A DNA stretch of 56,040 nt, from contig CAJBNH010000055.1 of NCBI GenBank assembly GCA_903955385.1, positions 1 to 56,040 on the forward strand, in the 5' to 3' direction. Of this stretch, positions 34,758 to 47,543 are shown in pieces; position 1 is the first letter of the stretch, and each line of letters starts with the position of its first letter. The translations under genes and the position numbers were made by a program. The DNA is from an uncultured Myxococcales bacterium. Lineage in GTDB: Bacteria > Myxococcota_A > UBA9042. The notes under the pieces were generated by a model. It was not told where the DNA came from and ran no database searches. It saw only the letters and a program-made list of their open reading frames with translations.

Positions 34758-36917
34758 TTAGCGCACATAGGTCCAGAAGCGCTTGTTGCCCCACGCGGCG
34801 CCGTTGCCACAGCCCTCGATGGTCGTGTACGGGGCGTTGCGGCAGCGACACGAGTTGCAGGCATAGCCCTTGCCCCAGATCTTCACGGCGCCTGCGCTGC
34901 AGTTCCAGTTGCACCCGCCCCCGACGGCCAGGTCGCCGTAGTACAAGCCAAAGCAGCCGTCTTCGGCGTCGCCGCAAGACCCCCCGGTACCGCCGACGCG
35001 CACCTGATAGCCCGAGTCGCAGTTGGCCGAAGTGTTGGCGACCTGGAAGCCGGTCTTGGCTGAGTTGTAGCAGGTGTGCTGGACCACGAAGTTCGAGTAG
35101 ACGGGGGTTGCGGCGGTGTGGTCCCACTCGAGGATCAGCACTTCCTTGTACGGGATCTTGCTGCGCTCGCTTAGGTTGTCGTAGTACGTCTCGGCGAACT
35201 CGCTGACCTTGGTCCAACCGCCGCCCTTCTGCGTCATGTCGCAGGTCGCCTGGAACGCGTCGGCCGGGTCGCCCAGATTCGGGTCGAGCCAGTACTTGCC
35301 GTCCTTGGCCGTCCAGCCCGCGCTGGTCCACGCGGCCAGGATCGCGGCGCAAGAGGTCCCCGGCTTGGCCTTGAGGAGGCCGACCGACGCGATGCACGCC
35401 GCACTGCAGCCGTCGCCATCCTTGGTGTTGCCGTCGTCGCACTCTTCCTTGCCCAGCAACTTGCCGTCGCCACACACGGTCTGGCAGGTGGCCGAGCAGC
35501 CGTCGCCATCGGTGTTGTTGCCGTCGTCACACTGCTCGGTGGCGTCGAGGATGCCGTTGCCGCACGTGTCGGCCAAGTTGCGCCAGGCCGCTCCGTCGCA
35601 ATAGCGCACGGCCTTGGCCACTGTATCGAAGTACAGCGAACCGGCCAGTGTCGGACCGCACGGAAGCGGGGCCTCGGCGGCGTTCTGCAGCTTCAGCAGA
35701 CCGGCCAACCCGACCTTGGCGGACGACATGACGCCGATGTTCAGGCTCCACCCCTTGAGGGCGCCGTCGAAACCGTTGTTGAGGAAGGCGACGTCGACCA
35801 CTTCCAAGTACCATTTTCCCTTGGGATTTTTGCCGATCCAAGTGGTCAGGTCGCCGGACACGGTCTTGGTGGGGTTGGGCCAGCTCGTCTTGACCTGAGT
35901 GCCCTTGGCCGTCTTGTCCCACAACACAAACTTGGTGCCGGCGGGGTCGATGAGCGTGACGCGCAGGTTGCCCGTGTCGCTGTTGGCAATCTCGGCCGCT
36001 ACGGTGAACGTCTGAGCGATGCCGAAGTCGGGCACATCGATCACGTCGCTGATGCCAACCGGGCTGTTGTCGGGGATGGGGACCAGCTTGGTGCTTGCGG
36101 CGACCTCGTTGAACTGGTTGGTCAAGAGACCATTGGAGACCTCGTCCAGTGCATCCTTGGGCAACGCCGTGGGGTCCATCGCCTGCACGCAGTCGTAGCT
36201 GCCGTCTGCCTTCAGGCCGCGCACCACCAGACCGGTGCCGCAGGCGATGCCAAGCTTGGCAAGGGTCGGCAATCCCTCCAGATCTGCATAGGTGCCCGAC
36301 GTTGCCACGGTCGCCAGCGATGCTGTCTGGGCATAGCCGCTCAGGTCCGGGCCACCCGACAGGTCGGCAAAGGCTCCCGACGTCGCGACCTTGGCCAATG
36401 TGGCGGTCTTGGCGTAGGCAGCCAGGTCGGCCGACTTGGCGTACGGGGCGAACACCTGCGGATCCAGATGCGCCGTCTGGACGCAACCGGAACAGTCGAT
36501 GCCCGTCGCCACACCGGCGCGCAAGGCGTACAGCACGGTGTGCACGGGCACCCGCGGCAGCTCAGGGTCCGGCTGCACGGCGATGCCCAGGTAGGCTTTG
36601 GCAAGCGTGGCAAGCAGCTCGGGCTTCAGCGGGACCTTGGCGCCCATGGCGAGACTGAACAGGCCACCCTGGACCGACGCTTCGGCGCCCTGCTCGCTCC
36701 AGGCGGCCTGACCACCTTGCGCGTCCGGATAGATCGCCAAGTTCAGCAGGTACTTGCCGTCGGCCGCCGGACCACCGCCGGTCGCCTGCAGCGTCCCCTC
36801 CAACAGCACCGTGGTCGGCACAGCGGCCGACGCAAGGGCAGGCAGCAGCAGCGACGCGAGAGCGCCCCAAGTAATCCGTCGAAGTGTGCGAGACAGGGTC
36901 GTGCGGTTAGGCGTCAT
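34758..36917 (-). CDS. secreted modular protein: repeats, P domain, two DUF4215 units, fibrinogen-like C-terminus
   Basis: The 719-residue product is a paralog of the product at 14441-16501 through residue about 400: signal peptide (1-31), GGGPAADGKY, DCSGC at 141-145, VATSG-x-Y/F-ADL repeats at about 170-220, CGTGLVVRG, and a P domain at about 280-395. Past this the proteins differ. Here two DUF4215 units follow (CGNGILDATEQCDDGN and CGDGKLLGKEECDDGN, 452-510), then a fibrinogen-like domain (519-719) with TSCAAIL, ATCDMTQKGGGWT and several Cys. The shared front with exchanged ends points to domain shuffling. It is probably secreted. Function unknown; carbohydrate or surface binding is possible for fibrinogen-like domains. 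Confidence 0.85.
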   Translation of the reverse strand: MTPNRTTLSRTLRRITWGALASLLLPALASAAVPTTVLLEGTLQATGGGPAADGKYLLNLAIYPDAQGGQAAWSEQGAEASVQGGLFSLAMGAKVPLKPELLATLAKAYLGIAVQPDPELPRVPVHTVLYALRAGVATGIDCSGCVQTAHLDPQVFAPYAKSADLAAYAKTATLAKVATSGAFADLSGGPDLSGYAQTASLATVATSGTYADLEGLPTLAKLGIACGTGLVVRGLKADGSYDCVQAMDPTALPKDALDEVSNGLLTNQFNEVAASTKLVPIPDNSPVGISDVIDVPDFGIAQTFTVAAEIANSDTGNLRVTLIDPAGTKFVLWDKTAKGTQVKTSWPNPTKTVSGDLTTWIGKNPKGKWYLEVVDVAFLNNGFDGALKGWSLNIGVMSSAKVGLAGLLKLQNAAEAPLPCGPTLAGSLYFDTVAKAVRYCDGAAWRNLADTCGNGILDATEQCDDGNNTDGDGCSATCQTVCGDGKLLGKEECDDGNTKDGDGCSAACIASVGLLKAKPGTSCAAILAAWTSAGWTAKDGKYWLDPNLGDPADAFQATCDMTQKGGGWTKVSEFAETYYDNLSERSKIPYKEVLILEWDHTAATPVYSNFVVQHTCYNSAKTGFQVANTSANCDSGYQVRVGGTGGSCGDAEDGCFGLYYGDLAVGGGCNWNCSAGAVKIWGKGYACNSCRCRNAPYTTIEGCGNGAAWGNKRFWTYVR

Positions 36918-39185: not shown

Positions 39186-41894
39186 TCAGGTGAGCGGCAG
39201 GGCCTGCTGGTCGACCGGACTGCGCCGTGGCAGGCGGACGATGAACGTGGTGCCGACGCCCGCTTCGCTGGTCAGCTGCAAGGTGCCGCCCAGGCTCTGC
39301 ACGACGCGGCGAACGATGGTCAGCCCCATGCCCATGCCGCGCCCGGGGCCCTTGGTCGTGAAGAAAGGCGTGAAAATACGCGCCTTTGCTTCATCCGAGA
39401 TGCCGTGTCCGTTGTCCGCCACCGTGACCGTCACCCAGTCGTCGTCGCCGCGTCCGGTGACCGACACGCATCCGGATTCGTCGGCGACGGCCTCGATGGC
39501 GTTTTGCAGCAGGTTTGAGAGGACCTGGTTCAGTTCCTCGGGTACGCAGTCCACATGGCCGTCGCCCTCCAGATCGACGTCCACCTTCACCGGCCTTCCC
39601 GTCGCGGGCAGCACCATGGCGACGATGTCGCGAACGGCACCAAAGGCGTCGTAGAGGCGCATGGCGCGGGAGTAGCCCTCGCGGCTATAGCGCCCCATCA
39701 GGTCCACCGTCGCCGCGATGCGCTTCACGCCTCCGTCGGCCATCTCGATCATCTTGTGGACGCGTTCCTCGTTCTTCTGCAGTCGGGCGATCTCCTCGTC
39801 GCTCAGCGCGCGGCCGCGGGCGACCTGCATCAACTCGACGGTGTCATGCACGTCGATCTCCACCCGCCTCAACGCATTTTTCACGTAATTCAGTGGGTTA
39901 TTGATCTCGTGGGCGAGTCCCCCGGCAATCGTCTCCAGCGAGTCCAGCCGTGAGTTCAGCAGCAGATCGGCCTGCGTCTCCTGAATGTTCAGCAGCGCCC
40001 GTGCGGTCGAGAGCAGCTCCTTGGCCGAGAACGGCTTGCTCAAGTACGCGTTGACGCCGGTGTCGAGACCGCGCACCCGGTCCTCCAGATCGCCGCGGGC
40101 CGTCAGCATCACAATCGGCGTGTGGCGCGTCCGCGGGTCCTCGCGCAACCGACGGGTCAGCTCCAGGCCGTCGATGCCCGGCATCATCAGGTCGGTAATG
40201 ATCAGCGACGGCAGCTCTCGCACCGCCATCTCGAGACCCTTCAGCCCGTCGGGAGCCGCCATGACCTTGAAGTGACGCCGCAGCGCCAGGTGAATGACGC
40301 GGATGACGTCTGGGGTGTCCTCGACGATCAGCACCGTCCATTGGCGCTGGTTCTCGTCCTGGTCGCGCTCGACGACACGCCGCTCGGTCAGCTCGGAGAT
40401 GTCCAACAGCCGGAAGTCATCGCGTCCATCGACCTCGACCGCTCCGCCCAGAATCTCGATCTGGTGGGGCCGGCCGACCTTGAGCGCATCCGCCGGCTCT
40501 GAGGCGTCGGTCAGTGTGTCCGGACGGAAGTGGCTGCGACCCTTCAGCAGTTCGACCGTGAAGCAGGCGCCCTTGCCCTCTGCGCCGCGCGCATAGATGC
40601 GGCCACCGTGCAGCCCGACCAGCTCGCGGGCCAGCGCCAGACCGATGCCGGTGCCACCGTGCTTGCGGGTGCCGCCCATGTCGACCTGGAAGAACCGCTC
40701 GAACACCCGGTCGGCCATCTCGGGGGGGAAGCCCGGGCCATCGTCGGCAACCTCGATGCGCACCGCCCCCCCGTCGTCGAACAGCCGCACGGCGATGTGG
40801 CCCTCAGGGGGCGTGAACTTCACCGCATTCGACAGCAGGTTGATCATCACCCGCTCGATGCGCTCGATGTCGCACCAGATGTTCGCGTCCGCAACCGAGG
40901 TGTTGAACACCAATGCCACGCGCTTGCGTTGGGCCAGCGGCTGCACGTGCCCCACCAGATTGCCCAGCCATTCGACCATGTCGTGCTGCGCGATGCGCAA
41001 GCGGAGGCGCGACTCCTCCAGCTTGGTCAGGTCAAGCAAGTCATTGATCAGGTTCAGCAACTTGAAGCCGTTGCGAAACATCGTCTGCAGGGTCGACCGC
41101 TGCACGTCGGTCAGACGGCCCAGCTCTTCCTGAATCAGCAGCTCCAGCGGCGAGAGGATCATCGCAAGCGGCGTCTTCAGCTCGTGCGTGATGTTCGCGA
41201 AGAACTTGGTCTTGAAGGCGTCGAGCTGCTGCAGCTGCGCGTGCGCGCGCTCGAGATTGGCTGTCGTCTGCTCCAGGCGGATCTGGTTGAGCACCTGGTC
41301 GCGGTTGGAGCGAAAACCAAACGCTTGCGCTGCCGTGACGACCGTTGCCGTCGACGACACAAAGAACAGGTTCGGCGCAGCCCACGCCCAGTTGATCGGG
41401 ACGCCGTGAAACGCATTGGGAATGACATAGGAGGCCACGACCAGACCGTACGTCCACGCCGCCTGCCGCCCCGTCCACACGAACAGCAGGCCGACACCCA
41501 TCACGGACAGGTTCAGGCCCGCGTAGTACGGCGTCTCGTAGCCGCCCATCACCACCGTCATGACCGAGATGCCGCCGCCCAGCATGACCGCGTGCCCCGA
41601 GGTCAGGACGCGCCAGTGCCGACTGAAGAACTCACCGCGGTGGATGGCGAGCAGCCACAGGCTCCACAGCGAGACCACCGCCCGCGTGGTGAACAGCAGC
41701 GGCCACCACTTCGAGGGCGCCACCATCCAGTCCAGCAAGCCGAACATGGGGTAGATGGTGATCGTGAGCCAGAACGCGATCCGGGTGCTCATCCGGTTGC
41801 GTTCGAGCAGCCACGATTCCCACCGACGCTCCACGTCGACGGGGTCGGCCTCCAGCGGCTGCGTGTTCGGCCGGTCTGGGTTCAGACGGAGCAT
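39186..41894 (-). CDS. membrane hybrid sensor with two histidine-kinase cores (5-6TM-HK-REC-HK), PhcS/PhcR-like
   Basis: The 902-residue product has five or six transmembrane helices (about 38-190), a first kinase core with His237 in HELKTP, N and G boxes (NLLSNAVKF, DDGPGFP, GGTGIGLAL), a receiver at about 519-640 with Asp568 in IITDLMMPG and Lys620, then a second, complete kinase core with His662 in HEINNPLNY and ATP-binding motifs NLLQNAIEA, DNGHGIS and GRGMGMGL. The ATG at 41894 overlaps the stop of the upstream methyltransferase gene by one base (TGATG), so translation is coupled. It has the combined domain set of PhcS (membrane sensor) and PhcR (receiver plus kinase). Dual cores allow an internal phosphorelay. 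The ligand is not known. Confidence 0.92.
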   Translation of the reverse strand: MLRLNPDRPNTQPLEADPVDVERRWESWLLERNRMSTRIAFWLTITIYPMFGLLDWMVAPSKWWPLLFTTRAVVSLWSLWLLAIHRGEFFSRHWRVLTSGHAVMLGGGISVMTVVMGGYETPYYAGLNLSVMGVGLLFVWTGRQAAWTYGLVVASYVIPNAFHGVPINWAWAAPNLFFVSSTATVVTAAQAFGFRSNRDQVLNQIRLEQTTANLERAHAQLQQLDAFKTKFFANITHELKTPLAMILSPLELLIQEELGRLTDVQRSTLQTMFRNGFKLLNLINDLLDLTKLEESRLRLRIAQHDMVEWLGNLVGHVQPLAQRKRVALVFNTSVADANIWCDIERIERVMINLLSNAVKFTPPEGHIAVRLFDDGGAVRIEVADDGPGFPPEMADRVFERFFQVDMGGTRKHGGTGIGLALARELVGLHGGRIYARGAEGKGACFTVELLKGRSHFRPDTLTDASEPADALKVGRPHQIEILGGAVEVDGRDDFRLLDISELTERRVVERDQDENQRQWTVLIVEDTPDVIRVIHLALRRHFKVMAAPDGLKGLEMAVRELPSLIITDLMMPGIDGLELTRRLREDPRTRHTPIVMLTARGDLEDRVRGLDTGVNAYLSKPFSAKELLSTARALLNIQETQADLLLNSRLDSLETIAGGLAHEINNPLNYVKNALRRVEIDVHDTVELMQVARGRALSDEEIARLQKNEERVHKMIEMADGGVKRIAATVDLMGRYSREGYSRAMRLYDAFGAVRDIVAMVLPATGRPVKVDVDLEGDGHVDCVPEELNQVLSNLLQNAIEAVADESGCVSVTGRGDDDWVTVTVADNGHGISDEAKARIFTPFFTTKGPGRGMGMGLTIVRRVVQSLGGTLQLTSEAGVGTTFIVRLPRRSPVDQQALPLT

Positions 41895-43447
41895 CACGTG
41901 CGCGTCACCACCAGGAAGGGGTTGATCCGCGTGCGATCTTCGGCGATGCGCAGCGGGGCGTCAGGCAGGGCCTGGCGGCCAAAGCCGAGCATCTCGGCCT
42001 GCGACCGGTAGATCAAGGTCCAGTCAAGGTGATGCTCGAAGATCCAGCGACATGGGTTGGCCGGGTCCATGTTGCCCACGTACGCCTCACCGCCGGGCAC
42101 CAGCTGCAAGTGCAGGTTGCGGGTCAGCGTCACGGCGGTGGGAATCCGCAGGTAATCGTAAAGCCCTGAGCTGAAGATGAAATCGAACGGCCCTTGGTCG
42201 GCGAACAGCGTGGGGTCGTGCAGCAGGCGCTTGATCGAGTCGTGCAGGAACACCAGCTTGATCAGGCCGCGGCCGTGGCTCTCGACGGCTGGCCCCAAGC
42301 GACGGTGCGCGAAGGACAGCGCTTGCTTGTCCTGATCGAACAGCACGATCTCGATGGGTCCCGCGATCTCCTCGACCTCCAACAGAAATTCCAGTGTTTC
42401 CTGCGCGGGGCCGGCTGCCACGGAGGCAATCCGCACCGGCCGACCCGGACGGGTCTCGCGCGCCAGCTCAAGCAACCGAGCCTTGATCACGTCCTTGCGC
42501 GCCCGCACGGCTTGGGCCGGCAGCGAATCGCACGAGGCGAGGTGCAGCGCCTTGCCGTACAGCGTGGCGCCCTCAAAATTGCGGAAGTACATGTAATTCA
42601 TAGACTCGAAGTCACCCGGATACCCCAGCGGCTTGTATCGGGTGCGGTGCAGCAGCGGCGCGGGCATCAGCAGCTGGTGCAGGTGACGCACCGAAAACGC
42701 CTTCAGCACCTCGTTGTCGGCCCGATTTGCGCGCCGCATCGCCTGGTCGATCCGCGTGAATCGGTCGAGCACCTGCGGCACAAACTCGGCGCGCAACCGC
42801 TCGATCAGGGCGCGGCGCGCGGGCAGGTCCGCCTCACCGTGCACGACGGACCACGGCAAGTCCGCTTCCATCTTGCGAAACGCCTCTTCGGCGTCCTCCA
42901 GGAACAGGCGGAACTCGGCAACGTGGGCGCGAAACGCCTCGTGTCCCTCGATCGACCACTCGGCCTGACCAAACGACAAGTCCGACTGGACGCCCCGCCA
43001 GGTCACGACATGGCGCAGGCTCAGCACGTCGTCGATGCTGACCAGCGCGTCGGCAAAGGACACGCCCACCACCTGTGCATCGCCCCGACGGCGCAGCGAG
43101 GTGACCCGCGCCCCGCCGTCGTACAGCACGTGGCCGTCAAAGCCAACGGTCAGGCGCTGCAGCACGGCACCCACCGAAGGAATCGCGTCCCCGGACCACG
43201 CAAGACCGACGCCGGACGCCGAGATGTCCACCAGCTGGCAGATCTCTACCGCGCCGTCCCACGAGACCTCGACCGCCGACGTCAGCGGCAGCAGATCTTC
43301 GGGACGATAGCGCTCTGGGCGGAAGAAGATCTCGCGGCCCTGTGCCCCTTCCAACTCTTCGTATTCTCTGATCTCTCCCATCGACTGCAGGCCAGCCCCC
43401 CGCAGGGCGGCGCCGGAGACGGTGGGAACGTCGGGGGTCAGGGTCAT
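41894..43447 (-). CDS. PilZ-domain/PhcB-like methyltransferase fusion
   Basis: The 517-residue product has a PilZ-like N-terminal domain (about 40-135) with DISASG (Asp74, Ser76, Gly79) but an imperfect RxxxR (RPERYR, Arg43, 46, 48). A helical linker follows, then a methyltransferase domain with KPLGYPGDFESMNYMY, PAQAVRARKDVI, motif I in IASVAAGPAQETLE, DQDKQAL and SSGLYDYL. This matches proteins annotated as extracellular-factor (3-hydroxypalmitic acid methyl ester, PhcB-type) synthesis enzymes. Known biology: PhcB makes a volatile fatty-acid methyl ester sensed by PhcS. GGAG lies upstream of the ATG at 43447. Its stop overlaps the hybrid kinase start. The PilZ part may link c-di-GMP to signal synthesis; the degenerate motif makes that uncertain. 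Confidence 0.82.
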   Translation of the reverse strand: MTLTPDVPTVSGAALRGAGLQSMGEIREYEELEGAQGREIFFRPERYRPEDLLPLTSAVEVSWDGAVEICQLVDISASGVGLAWSGDAIPSVGAVLQRLTVGFDGHVLYDGGARVTSLRRRGDAQVVGVSFADALVSIDDVLSLRHVVTWRGVQSDLSFGQAEWSIEGHEAFRAHVAEFRLFLEDAEEAFRKMEADLPWSVVHGEADLPARRALIERLRAEFVPQVLDRFTRIDQAMRRANRADNEVLKAFSVRHLHQLLMPAPLLHRTRYKPLGYPGDFESMNYMYFRNFEGATLYGKALHLASCDSLPAQAVRARKDVIKARLLELARETRPGRPVRIASVAAGPAQETLEFLLEVEEIAGPIEIVLFDQDKQALSFAHRRLGPAVESHGRGLIKLVFLHDSIKRLLHDPTLFADQGPFDFIFSSGLYDYLRIPTAVTLTRNLHLQLVPGGEAYVGNMDPANPCRWIFEHHLDWTLIYRSQAEMLGFGRQALPDAPLRIAEDRTRINPFLVVTRT

Positions 43448-43492
43448 GGCAGGGAGTCTCCAGAAAGCCGCGGGACGGGGAGCCCGCTGCGC

Positions 43493-44698
43493 CTATGCCG
43501 GCAAGTCGGCGGTCGGCAGGTGGATCTCGAAGATGGTGCCGCCGCCCGGTCGGTCGTGGCAGGCGATGCGGCCGTTGTGGCTGGTGACGATGAGGTGGGA
43601 CATGTACAGCCCCAACCCCATGCCCTGTTCGCCCTTGGACGAGACGAAGGCCTGGAACAGGTGCTCCCGCAGGTCCTCGGGAAAGCCGGGGCCCTCATCC
43701 TCGACCCGATAGACGATGTCGGGACCGCTGTGGCTGACGCGAATCGCGATGCCCTGTTGCGGCTCCGTCGCCTGAACGGCGTTGCGCAACAAATTCACCA
43801 GCACCTGCACGAGCTTCTGTCGATCACCAAACAGCGGAGGCAGGTCACCCGTCGGCGCCTCGACGTCGACCCGCCGCACCCGGAAGCTCAGGTCCAGACG
43901 CATCACCGTCACGGCATCCTTCACCACCTGGGCCGGATCGAAGTATTCCACCGCCATCGACATCCGCCGCTGACGGACGAACTGGTTCATCGTGTCCAGG
44001 GCGTTCATCAGGTTGCGGACACCTGCGACGCCCACGGTCACCGACTCGACAAGTTCCGGGTCGGCATCCCGCGCGTTGATCTCCCGCTCCAGATGCAGCA
44101 ACCCGTTCATGGCGTTGCGCAAGTCGTGGGTGATGCCGGCCGCCAGACGACCGGTCGTGGCCAAGCGGTCCAAATGCAGCATGTTCTTCTGGGCTTCTCG
44201 CAGCTCTGCCAGGGCCTCCGCCAGCTCGTCGGAGCGCGCCGACAGCAGCTCGACCAGACGCAGAATGGCGCGCTGCTGGGCCACGGCCTCACTGGCGCGA
44301 GAGACGGCGTCCAGCACCTCGTCGGCGTTCCAGGGCTTCTTCAGGTAGCGAAACACGCGGGCGCGATTGATGGCCGAGATCAGGGCCGGCGTGTCGCTGT
44401 AGCCCGTCAGCACGATGGTCGCGACGTCGGGGCGAGTGGCCCGGGCCCGCTCCAGCAGCTCGATACCCGTCATCTCCGGCATGCGCTGGTCGGCGATGAT
44501 GACGTCAACCGTCTCGCGGGCCAGCAGCTCCAGCGCTTCGGCACCGGAACGGGCCGTCAGCACTTCGTAGTCCGTCTCCAGAAAGGCTTGCAGTACGGCC
44601 AAGTTGGGCAGTTCGTCGTCGACCAGCAGCAAGCGCCGGGTCAGCAGCTCGCCCACGGGGTACTTGCTCAGTAGCTCTGGTATCACACAGGACCTCAC
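43493..44698 (-). CDS. response regulator with C-terminal histidine-kinase core (REC-HK), PhcR-like
   Basis: The 401-residue product has a receiver at about 22-140 (acidic pair in LLLVDDE, Asp70 in IIADQRMPEMTG, Lys121 in RYLKKPW), then a coiled linker and a kinase core with His191 in HDLRNAMNG, NLLRNAVQA, DEGPGFP and QGMGLGLYM. No output DNA-binding domain is visible. A receiver followed by a kinase is the unusual layout described for PhcR. The start is uncertain: GTG at 44698 is listed, but GTG at 44686 has GAGG before it. It is first in the operon; the methyltransferase gene begins 45 bases later. It is cytoplasmic and probably acts with the membrane hybrid kinase. Confidence 0.88.
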   Translation of the reverse strand: MRSCVIPELLSKYPVGELLTRRLLLVDDELPNLAVLQAFLETDYEVLTARSGAEALELLARETVDVIIADQRMPEMTGIELLERARATRPDVATIVLTGYSDTPALISAINRARVFRYLKKPWNADEVLDAVSRASEAVAQQRAILRLVELLSARSDELAEALAELREAQKNMLHLDRLATTGRLAAGITHDLRNAMNGLLHLEREINARDADPELVESVTVGVAGVRNLMNALDTMNQFVRQRRMSMAVEYFDPAQVVKDAVTVMRLDLSFRVRRVDVEAPTGDLPPLFGDRQKLVQVLVNLLRNAVQATEPQQGIAIRVSHSGPDIVYRVEDEGPGFPEDLREHLFQAFVSSKGEQGMGLGLYMSHLIVTSHNGRIACHDRPGGGTIFEIHLPTADLPA

Positions 44699-46283: not shown

Positions 46284-47543
46284 ATGCAAGGCAAGGGATT
46301 GTGGATCGGAATCGGCGCCATCGCCGTCTTGGTCGTTCTCGTCATCGCCGGCATGGTTGAGCGGGTCGCCCCCACTCACCTGTGGTTGTACCAACGCGAC
46401 GGAACTCCGCTTGGCGGCAGGGAAGTTCGCGTCGAAGTCGCGCCCACCCAGTCCGCCAGCTACGCGGATGCATGGGAAGTCGTGGCCAAGATCCGCAGTG
46501 ACCCAAAGGGTCGCGCTGAGATCTTGCGCGACCGCAAGTTCGGCGTGCCGTTCGTCAGCGAGCGCGACTGGTCGGTTCGTCTCGTGATTCCGGCGCCCGA
46601 CGGCGACTCGGAAGTGCGCCTCGAGCACGATCAGGGCGTCCAGATCCTGTTCGAGATGGACGGCCGCGTCACGGCGACCCTGCACTTCCGCCAAGGTGCA
46701 GGCGCTCGCGCCGACCAGTGCGTGCAGGCAGCGAACAAGCTCTTCGGCGGCCAGCCGTTCGTCGCCGGACCCAACGTCTCCGGCGCCGTCGGCAAGTCCC
46801 GTCTGGTGGCCGCGGCCGACAGCGCGGGCCTGAAGTTCACGCCTGTGCCGCGCCGCGGGGCCGATCAGGGGCCGCAGGGCCTGCTGTTCGCACTGGCCGC
46901 TGGTGCGCCGACCTGCACGGTCGAGGTCTTCCTGCTCGACGGCGCCGCTCGCGTGCCCATGTCGTTCAGCCCCGACGAGGTCACCGACTTCTCCGCGCCT
47001 GAGCTCTCCCCCATCTTCCGCCGCATCCAGCGCTTCGGCCCCCAGGGTGGCAACGGGATGCCCCCCGGCATGATGCCCCCCGGCGACATGCCTCCCGGCA
47101 TGATGCCCCGCGGCCTGCCCGGCCGTCCGACCGGCACCGACATGCCCGCGGGCATGATGCCTCCCGGAATGATGCCGCAGGGTATGCCGCAGGGTGGGAT
47201 GCCTCAGGGTATGCCGCAGGGTGGGATGCCTCAGGGTATGCCGCAGGGTGGGATGCCTCAGGGTATGCCGCAGGGCGGAATGCCCCAGGGGATGCCGCAG
47301 GGTGGAATGCCCCAGGGTATGCCGCAGGGTGGAATGCCCCAGGGAATGCCGCAGGGTGGGATGCCGCAGGGTATGCCGCAGGGTGGGATGCCGCAGGGTA
47401 TGCCGCAGGGTGGAATGCCGCAGGGTGCCGCTCCTGGCGTGGCCCCGGCTCCCGGTGTCGCTCCCGCTGCCATTCCGGCTCCGAAGGCCGCTGCGGTCCC
47501 GGCGCCTGCCGCCGCTCCGGTTCCGCCTCCCGCCGCGAAGTAG
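46284..47543 (+). CDS. membrane-anchored protein with MPQGMPQGG tandem repeats
   Basis: The 419-residue product has one N-terminal transmembrane helix (about 6-24), a soluble domain (25-250) that I do not recognise, with scattered Cys, and a Met/Pro/Gly/Gln-rich tail. The tail begins with looser GMMPPG units and then holds nine exact MPQGMPQGG copies, followed by an Ala/Pro end. The tail is probably disordered and reaches out from the membrane. GGAGG at 46274-46278 fixes the start. The gene is convergent with the VWA lipoprotein gene, with 10 bases between stops. Function unknown. The Met-rich tail might bind copper or act as a spacer; neither is shown by the sequence. Confidence 0.85.
   Translation: MQGKGLWIGIGAIAVLVVLVIAGMVERVAPTHLWLYQRDGTPLGGREVRVEVAPTQSASYADAWEVVAKIRSDPKGRAEILRDRKFGVPFVSERDWSVRLVIPAPDGDSEVRLEHDQGVQILFEMDGRVTATLHFRQGAGARADQCVQAANKLFGGQPFVAGPNVSGAVGKSRLVAAADSAGLKFTPVPRRGADQGPQGLLFALAAGAPTCTVEVFLLDGAARVPMSFSPDEVTDFSAPELSPIFRRIQRFGPQGGNGMPPGMMPPGDMPPGMMPRGLPGRPTGTDMPAGMMPPGMMPQGMPQGGMPQGMPQGGMPQGMPQGGMPQGMPQGGMPQGMPQGGMPQGMPQGGMPQGMPQGGMPQGMPQGGMPQGMPQGGMPQGAAPGVAPAPGVAPAAIPAPKAAAVPAPAAAPVPPPAAK
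47172..47426 (+). repeat. 27-base tandem repeat (nine copies plus a 12-base partial)
   Basis: The unit codes MPQGMPQGG. Nine copies fill 47172-47414 and a partial unit ends at 47426. Copies differ only at a few third positions (CCG/CCT/CCC, CAG, GGT/GGG/GGC/GGA), so the array looks recently expanded and likely to vary in copy number between strains. Confidence 0.95.

Follow-up and report, generated by a model that had tools for sequence, protein, structure and literature searches.

The contig CAJBNH010000055.1 of an uncultured Myxococcales bacterium (assembly GCA_903955385.1), analysed here over 56,040 nucleotides (the window), carries an operon of three genes on its minus strand. Gene 1 encodes a soluble receiver-histidine kinase (REC-HK), gene 2 a methyltransferase with a PilZ-fold N-terminal domain, and gene 3 a transmembrane (TM) receptor with two histidine kinases, HKa and HKb, separated by an internal receiver (Table 1). 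Profile comparisons and trees identify the resemblance of this operon to the Phc system of Ralstonia as homology, and the operon as a Phc-type circuit which is not PhcBSR itself. In Ralstonia and Cupriavidus the Phc system performs quorum sensing by methyl 3-hydroxymyristate or methyl 3-hydroxypalmitate, the product of PhcB being a free methyl ester. We consider it fairly probable that the three genes likewise encode the synthase of a small signal molecule, methylated and probably a lipid, along with the receptor and the relay that serve it. The observations behind this reading are the architecture of the operon, the homology to PhcB and PhcS, the intact catalytic residues and the conserved linkage of the genes.

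Table 1. Genes, domains and motifs of the operon (window positions, all on the minus strand)
Feature	Position	Strand	Basis
Gene 1, REC-HK, 401 aa, soluble receiver-controlled histidine kinase, PhcR/PhcQ-like	43493..44698	-	ORF call, Pfam, PhcR comparison
Gene 1 receiver domain, residues 23-132, Asp in DQRMP at residue 70	44303..44632	-	Pfam, motif check
Gene 1 histidine kinase core, His in THDLRN (residues 190-195)	43505..44206	-	Pfam, motif check
Gene 2, PilZ-methyltransferase, 517 aa, PhcB homolog	41894..43447	-	reciprocal profile searches, hhalign, tree
Gene 2 PilZ-fold N-terminal domain, about residues 40-135, DISASG at 74-79, without canonical RxxxR	43043..43330	-	modelled fold, alignment
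Gene 2 helical cap and class I S-adenosylmethionine (SAM) methyltransferase domain, residues 161-517	41897..42967	-	AlphaFold2 model, fold search
Gene 2 family motif GYPGDFESMNYMY, residues 275-287, KPxGYxGD core common to PhcB	42587..42625	-	family alignment
Gene 2 family motif SSGLYDYL, residues 426-433	42149..42172	-	family alignment
Gene 3, TM-HKa-REC-HKb receptor, 903 aa, PhcS homolog with internal HK-REC block	39186..41897	-	Pfam, profile comparison, kinase tree
Gene 3 multi-spanning membrane sensor, residues 1-205, homologous to PhcS sensor	41283..41897	-	profile searches
Gene 3 first kinase HKa, residues 206-460, His in HELKTP at 238	40518..41282	-	Pfam, tree, motif check
Gene 3 internal receiver, residues 516-640, DLMMP at 569	39978..40352	-	Pfam, motif check
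Gene 3 second kinase HKb, residues 641-903, His in HEINNP at 663, sister lineage of PhcS kinase	39189..39977	-	profile comparison, tree
ORF, open reading frame.

Homology to the Phc system

A tblastn search led to a Paraburkholderia plasmid with genes for a methyltransferase, a histidine kinase and two response regulators, and a genome scan led to loci of Ralstonia and Cupriavidus. The four-gene operon of R. pickettii (L082) has PhcB Arg22, PhcS Leu161 and His230, and PhcQ Arg154 at the published positions (PMC6989110, PMC11960443) and is therefore identified as phcBSRQ. A methyltransferase profile of the window family, built without Phc sequences, had phcB as its single match in the R. pickettii genome (E 6.0e-69), and the sensor-domain profile of the same family had phcS (E 4.9e-11). 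Reciprocally, in the host genome the profile of true PhcB matched gene 2 alone (E 3.8e-39) and the PhcS sensor profile gene 3 alone (E 4.5e-7), the gene 3 sensor domain being found there above chance only once. Comparison of the window family with Phc by hhalign gave 100% for the methyltransferase, 98.8% for the sensor and 89-93% for the PilZ/N-domain.

An earlier note, made from the sequence alone, had judged the methyltransferase to fit the PhcB-type family by the strings GYPGDFESMNYMY and SSGLYDYL, both of which are present in gene 2, and had proposed a profile search against PhcB as a check. With phcB as the sole match in R. pickettii the family link is upheld, although gene 2 falls outside the PhcB clade of the Burkholderiales. 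In the methyltransferase tree PhcB forms one clade (100/99), a strongly supported clade unites PhcB with intermediates from other groups, and the window protein belongs to another; gene 2 is therefore a relative of PhcB and by clade not its ortholog. The core motifs KPxGYxGD, GLxDYL and C-terminal EHxLxWxLxYR are nevertheless common to PhcB and the gene 2 family.

Gene 2 was not readily recognized by standard models. Pfam gave sub-threshold matches only, to PilZ (E 0.022) and to methyltransferases, no confident family was found in Pfam, NCBIfam or PHROGs, and no NCBIfam model matches PhcB itself. Searching solved structures with the single protein gave nothing useful, and with the family profile it gave a weak match to 3ocj, a putative exported protein of Bordetella parapertussis without assigned function. 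The AlphaFold2 model (mean predicted local distance difference test, pLDDT, 79) begins with a beta-barrel, to which a helical cap and the fold of a SAM methyltransferase are joined; for the methyltransferase portion 3ocj is again the nearest solved structure (Z 20.6, root-mean-square deviation 3.0 over 248 residues, 18% identity). When the N-terminal domain was modelled alone (core pLDDT about 85) its structural matches were PilZ proteins from the first rank down, with Z up to 10.8, so that the PilZ domain named in the earlier note stands as a fold. D/NxSxxG is kept in 24 of 29 PilZ domains of the window clade, with FRxxR(x)R where RxxxR is expected; in gene 2 itself DISASG is present and FRxxRxR replaces RxxxR. 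The N-terminal region of PhcB, the site of the adaptive R22C mutation, has been placed outside any known domain (PMC6989110). Given the N-domain profile match (hhalign 89%), this region looks like a diverged PilZ domain, in which DxSxxG, kept in the window clade, is absent.

Pfam recognizes in gene 3 two HisKA and two HATPase_c domains and one Response_reg. In profile-profile comparison the PhcS kinase scored 280 against HKb and 211 against HKa. Moreover, in the kinase tree (FastTree) PhcS grouped with the second kinases of all double-kinase receptors (support 0.92), and with those of the intermediates from other groups with support 1.00. The grouping of the PhcS kinase with the second kinase, and not with the first, led us to reject a reading of gene 3 as a PhcS-PhcR fusion. 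PhcS therefore looks like a receptor of the window type minus its internal HK-REC block. The simplest reading, in which the order of older and younger forms depends on a midpoint-rooted tree, would make the double-kinase receptor the older form, from which PhcS of the Burkholderiales lost HKa-REC. The earlier suggestion of rearranged domains is corrected in that gene 3 is no mixture of PhcS and PhcR but PhcS with an additional HK-REC block.

Gene 1 has Response_reg and HATPase_c domains and a weak HisKA match (Pfam), and is 29% identical to PhcR of R. pickettii. Its receiver is nearest to that of PhcR (profile-profile score 188, compared with 92 for the gene 3 receiver) and, as in PhcR, it is a REC-HK without a DNA-binding domain encoded inside the operon. 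These comparisons identify it as a PhcR/PhcQ-like member of the circuit. In both gene 1 and gene 3 every phospho-acceptor His or Asp and every ATP-lid motif is present.

In overall composition the operon resembles PhcBSRQ of Ralstonia and Cupriavidus, with a homologous methyltransferase bearing a PilZ-like N-domain, a membrane sensor, a sensor kinase and a REC-HK partner in one operon. It differs in that gene 3 bears the additional block whereas PhcS is a single sensor-kinase, in that the REC-HK gene stands upstream, and in that PhcQ and a linked output are absent. Comparison of ORFs and neighbourhoods revealed no PhcQ-type fourth gene in the operon, and gene 1 may fill this role. The PhcB/PhcS/PhcR-like circuit of the earlier note is accordingly retained in part. 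The tie to Phc proves closer than that note could tell, since PhcB too bears a PilZ-like N-domain and the gene 3 sensor is homologous to the one in PhcS; corrections concern the architecture of gene 3, the place of gene 1 as the PhcR/PhcQ-like member and the clade of gene 2.

Conserved linkage and distribution

The three genes are a conserved unit, beyond a chance neighbourhood. Relatives of genes 1, 2 and 3 were found by blastp in 28, 28 and 26 of 29 other loci, counts which for the kinases are inflated by cross-matches. Among relatives of the host the TM-HK-REC-HK gene follows the methyltransferase in nearly every locus long enough, and the REC-HK gene precedes it in 12 of 18. This arrangement extends to the wider phylum. 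Of 46 loci with a PilZ-methyltransferase, 39 have a sensor kinase within two same-strand genes of it and 27 contain a REC-HK; several exceptions coincide with contig ends. The kinases therefore do recur as neighbours in related genomes, the absence of which the earlier note had named as a refutation, and the flanking genes do not. A count across 284 genomes of the phylum gave 38 sensor matches with 100 bits or more, 35 of which have the methyltransferase no further than 5 kb away, and 47 methyltransferase matches with 280 bits or more, 42 of them beside a sensor. The relatedness of these genomes would make a p-value exaggerate the linkage. In addition, methyltransferase and sensor diverge together (r = 0.89).

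Beyond the host phylum the spread was traced through the loci from the tblastn search and genome scan. The intermediates (L118-L126) combine a PhcB-type methyltransferase with a TM-HK-REC-HK and a REC-HK or receiver gene, and come from Gammaproteobacteria, Planctomycetota, Myxococcota and a metagenome-assembled genome of the Hyphomicrobiaceae. A reduced form of the set occurs in a cyanobacterium. No description of operons of this kind in organisms other than Betaproteobacteria was found in the open-access literature, and in a 2023 survey of orthologs in Pseudomonadota the phc cluster was confined to that class (PMC10653808). Homologous synthase-receptor-relay operons thus exist in several further groups, mostly with the longer receptor, which offers Phc an evolutionary origin and provides concrete organisms in which to search for fatty-acid-ester signals. 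Tentatively, the Phc system of Ralstonia could be a reduced and late-branching member of an ancient family of methyl-ester circuits that spans phyla. The ancestral receptor of this family would have had two kinases in series, and its signal synthesis could have been gated by cyclic di-GMP (c-di-GMP) through PilZ; we regard this as possible rather than probable. If it were true, related ester signals would be in use among Myxococcota-like bacteria, Planctomycetota, Gammaproteobacteria and Cyanobacteria. The presence of PilZ in the synthase also hints that c-di-GMP may influence how much signal is made, a connection that can be tested.

Several loci depart from the common arrangement. On a Pseudanabaena plasmid (L045:5022-7641) a PilZ-less PhcB-like enzyme faces a kinase with the sensor domain (E 4.5e-14) and a core of HKa type, and a receiver gene is also there. 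At L187:6241-9201 (minus strand) a membrane protein combines the sensor domain with a class III nucleotide cyclase and a cyclic nucleotide monophosphate (cNMP)-binding domain, beside a PilZ-less PhcB-like methyltransferase, so the pairing of sensor and methyltransferase extends to a non-kinase output. A 953-aa ORF at L195:2194-5055 (plus strand) unites sensor domain, nucleotide cyclase and cNMP-binding domain with a methyltransferase that is a remote member of the PhcB family and has neither the KPxGYxGD nor the GLxDYL motif. The receptor stops past the internal receiver in L165 and L166 (628-644 aa), where a second kinase was not found, and in L033 it is split into separate TM-HK and REC-HK genes. 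In L173, L174 and L175 a small protein with a MerR-type helix-turn-helix (HTH) and a receiver is encoded directly upstream of the methyltransferase and is a candidate DNA-binding output in these loci. A search of the host genome for such a MerR-HTH-REC regulator gave generic receiver matches only, and hence no output candidate.

Proposed signalling and alternative explanations

From the homology to PhcB we infer a methyl-ester product for gene 2; ligand binding, the order of phosphotransfer, export and density sensing have likewise the standing of inferences. With SAM as methyl donor, gene 2 would act on a carboxyl group, in all likelihood of a (hydroxy) fatty acid, and the resulting methyl ester would be membrane-permeant. 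The activity of the enzyme is probably modulated by its PilZ domain. Gene 3 would detect the ester within the membrane by its PhcS-type sensor. HKa would then autophosphorylate and pass the phosphate to the internal receiver, which would switch HKb as in receiver-controlled kinases, for which LvrB is a model (PMC13269768). HKb would in turn phosphorylate the receiver of gene 1, whose kinase would act on an output encoded elsewhere. Transfer from a hybrid kinase to a REC-HK has a precedent in Leptospira, where LvrA phosphorylates LvrB (PMC5863495). These two proteins are likewise encoded in one operon, and among NCBIfam models gene 3 matches LvrA best (329 bits, cut-off 1200). However, LvrA is soluble with a PAS sensor while the gene 3 sensor is membrane-bound, and the LvrA/LvrB paper mentions no methyltransferase (PMC5863495).

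Some observations weigh against a Phc-type ester circuit. The identity between gene 2 and PhcB is only about 25-29% and their clades are separate, so the substrate of gene 2 may differ from that of PhcB. In a single FastTree tree of divergent kinase domains, the gene-1-type kinases form clades of their own without the PhcR kinase. The operon contains no gene for transport, precursor supply or output. The sensor domain is also found, at lower scores, on kinases unlinked to a methyltransferase, and shared ancestry inflates the statistics of linkage and co-divergence.

The separate clade of gene 2 is also consistent with a Phc-like circuit of other chemistry, in which the methyl group goes to a different small acid (polyketide, quinolone-like or keto acid) and the receptor is adapted to the resulting product. 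Alpha-keto acid and polyketide methyltransferases are among the fold neighbours of the model, and the wider family includes an Enterobacter polyketide synthase domain and rhizobial enzymes away from kinases. Against it stand the three core motifs held in common with PhcB. We judge this reading rather improbable, though the likeliest of the alternatives to an ester signal of the Phc kind.

The methyltransferase could also act on a protein. CheR methylates chemoreceptors, and MapZ gates CheR1 with c-di-GMP; an adaptation circuit of this type would methylate a protein partner such as the receptor kinase under PilZ gating, without a diffusible signal. The PilZ model does match MapZ in the CheR1-MapZ complexes (5xly, 5y4r), which likewise combine a PilZ fold with a SAM methyltransferase, CheR is weakly similar to 12 of the 18 members of the family, and receptor and methyltransferase diverge together. 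MapZ and CheR1 are, however, two separate proteins and CheR1 a receptor-methylating enzyme, whereas gene 2 is fused and PhcB-type. The reciprocal single-match link to PhcB, with its free product, and a closest fold in 3ocj and small-molecule methyltransferases speak against a protein substrate; moreover, no demethylase was seen within the operon and the window's flanking genes do not recur in relatives. Such a circuit is therefore unlikely. That an ordinary orphan two-component system adjoins an unrelated methyltransferase by chance, in a host rich in two-component genes (47 receiver-like matches in its genome), is highly improbable and is refuted at the level of gene linkage, both by the strong sensor matches that adjoin a methyltransferase and by orthologous neighbours in several phyla while flanking genes are not common.

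Operon layout and surroundings

The ORF positions agree with the single minus-strand operon described at first reading, with a spacer of 45 bases between genes 1 and 2 (43448-43492). The one-base TGATG overlap reported with it holds for the ATG start of gene 3 at 41894, which has one base in common with the gene 2 stop (TGA, 41896-41894); the alternative in-frame GTG further upstream at 41897 gives an overlap of 4 bases instead. A promoter scan found no promoter, and terminator-like sites were not above their count in shuffled sequence. Of the LysR family, to which the Phc output PhcA belongs, two proteins exceed the cut-off in the host genome, both unlinked to the operon.

None of the window's flanking genes recurs in the loci of relatives. 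At 46284-47543 (plus strand) a predicted protein without family match carries an extended tandem repeat of MPQGG/MPQGMPQGG towards its C-terminus, and at 34758-36917 (minus strand) a large, secreted-looking protein carries cysteine repeats of the CGNGILDATEQCDDGNNTDGDGCS type.

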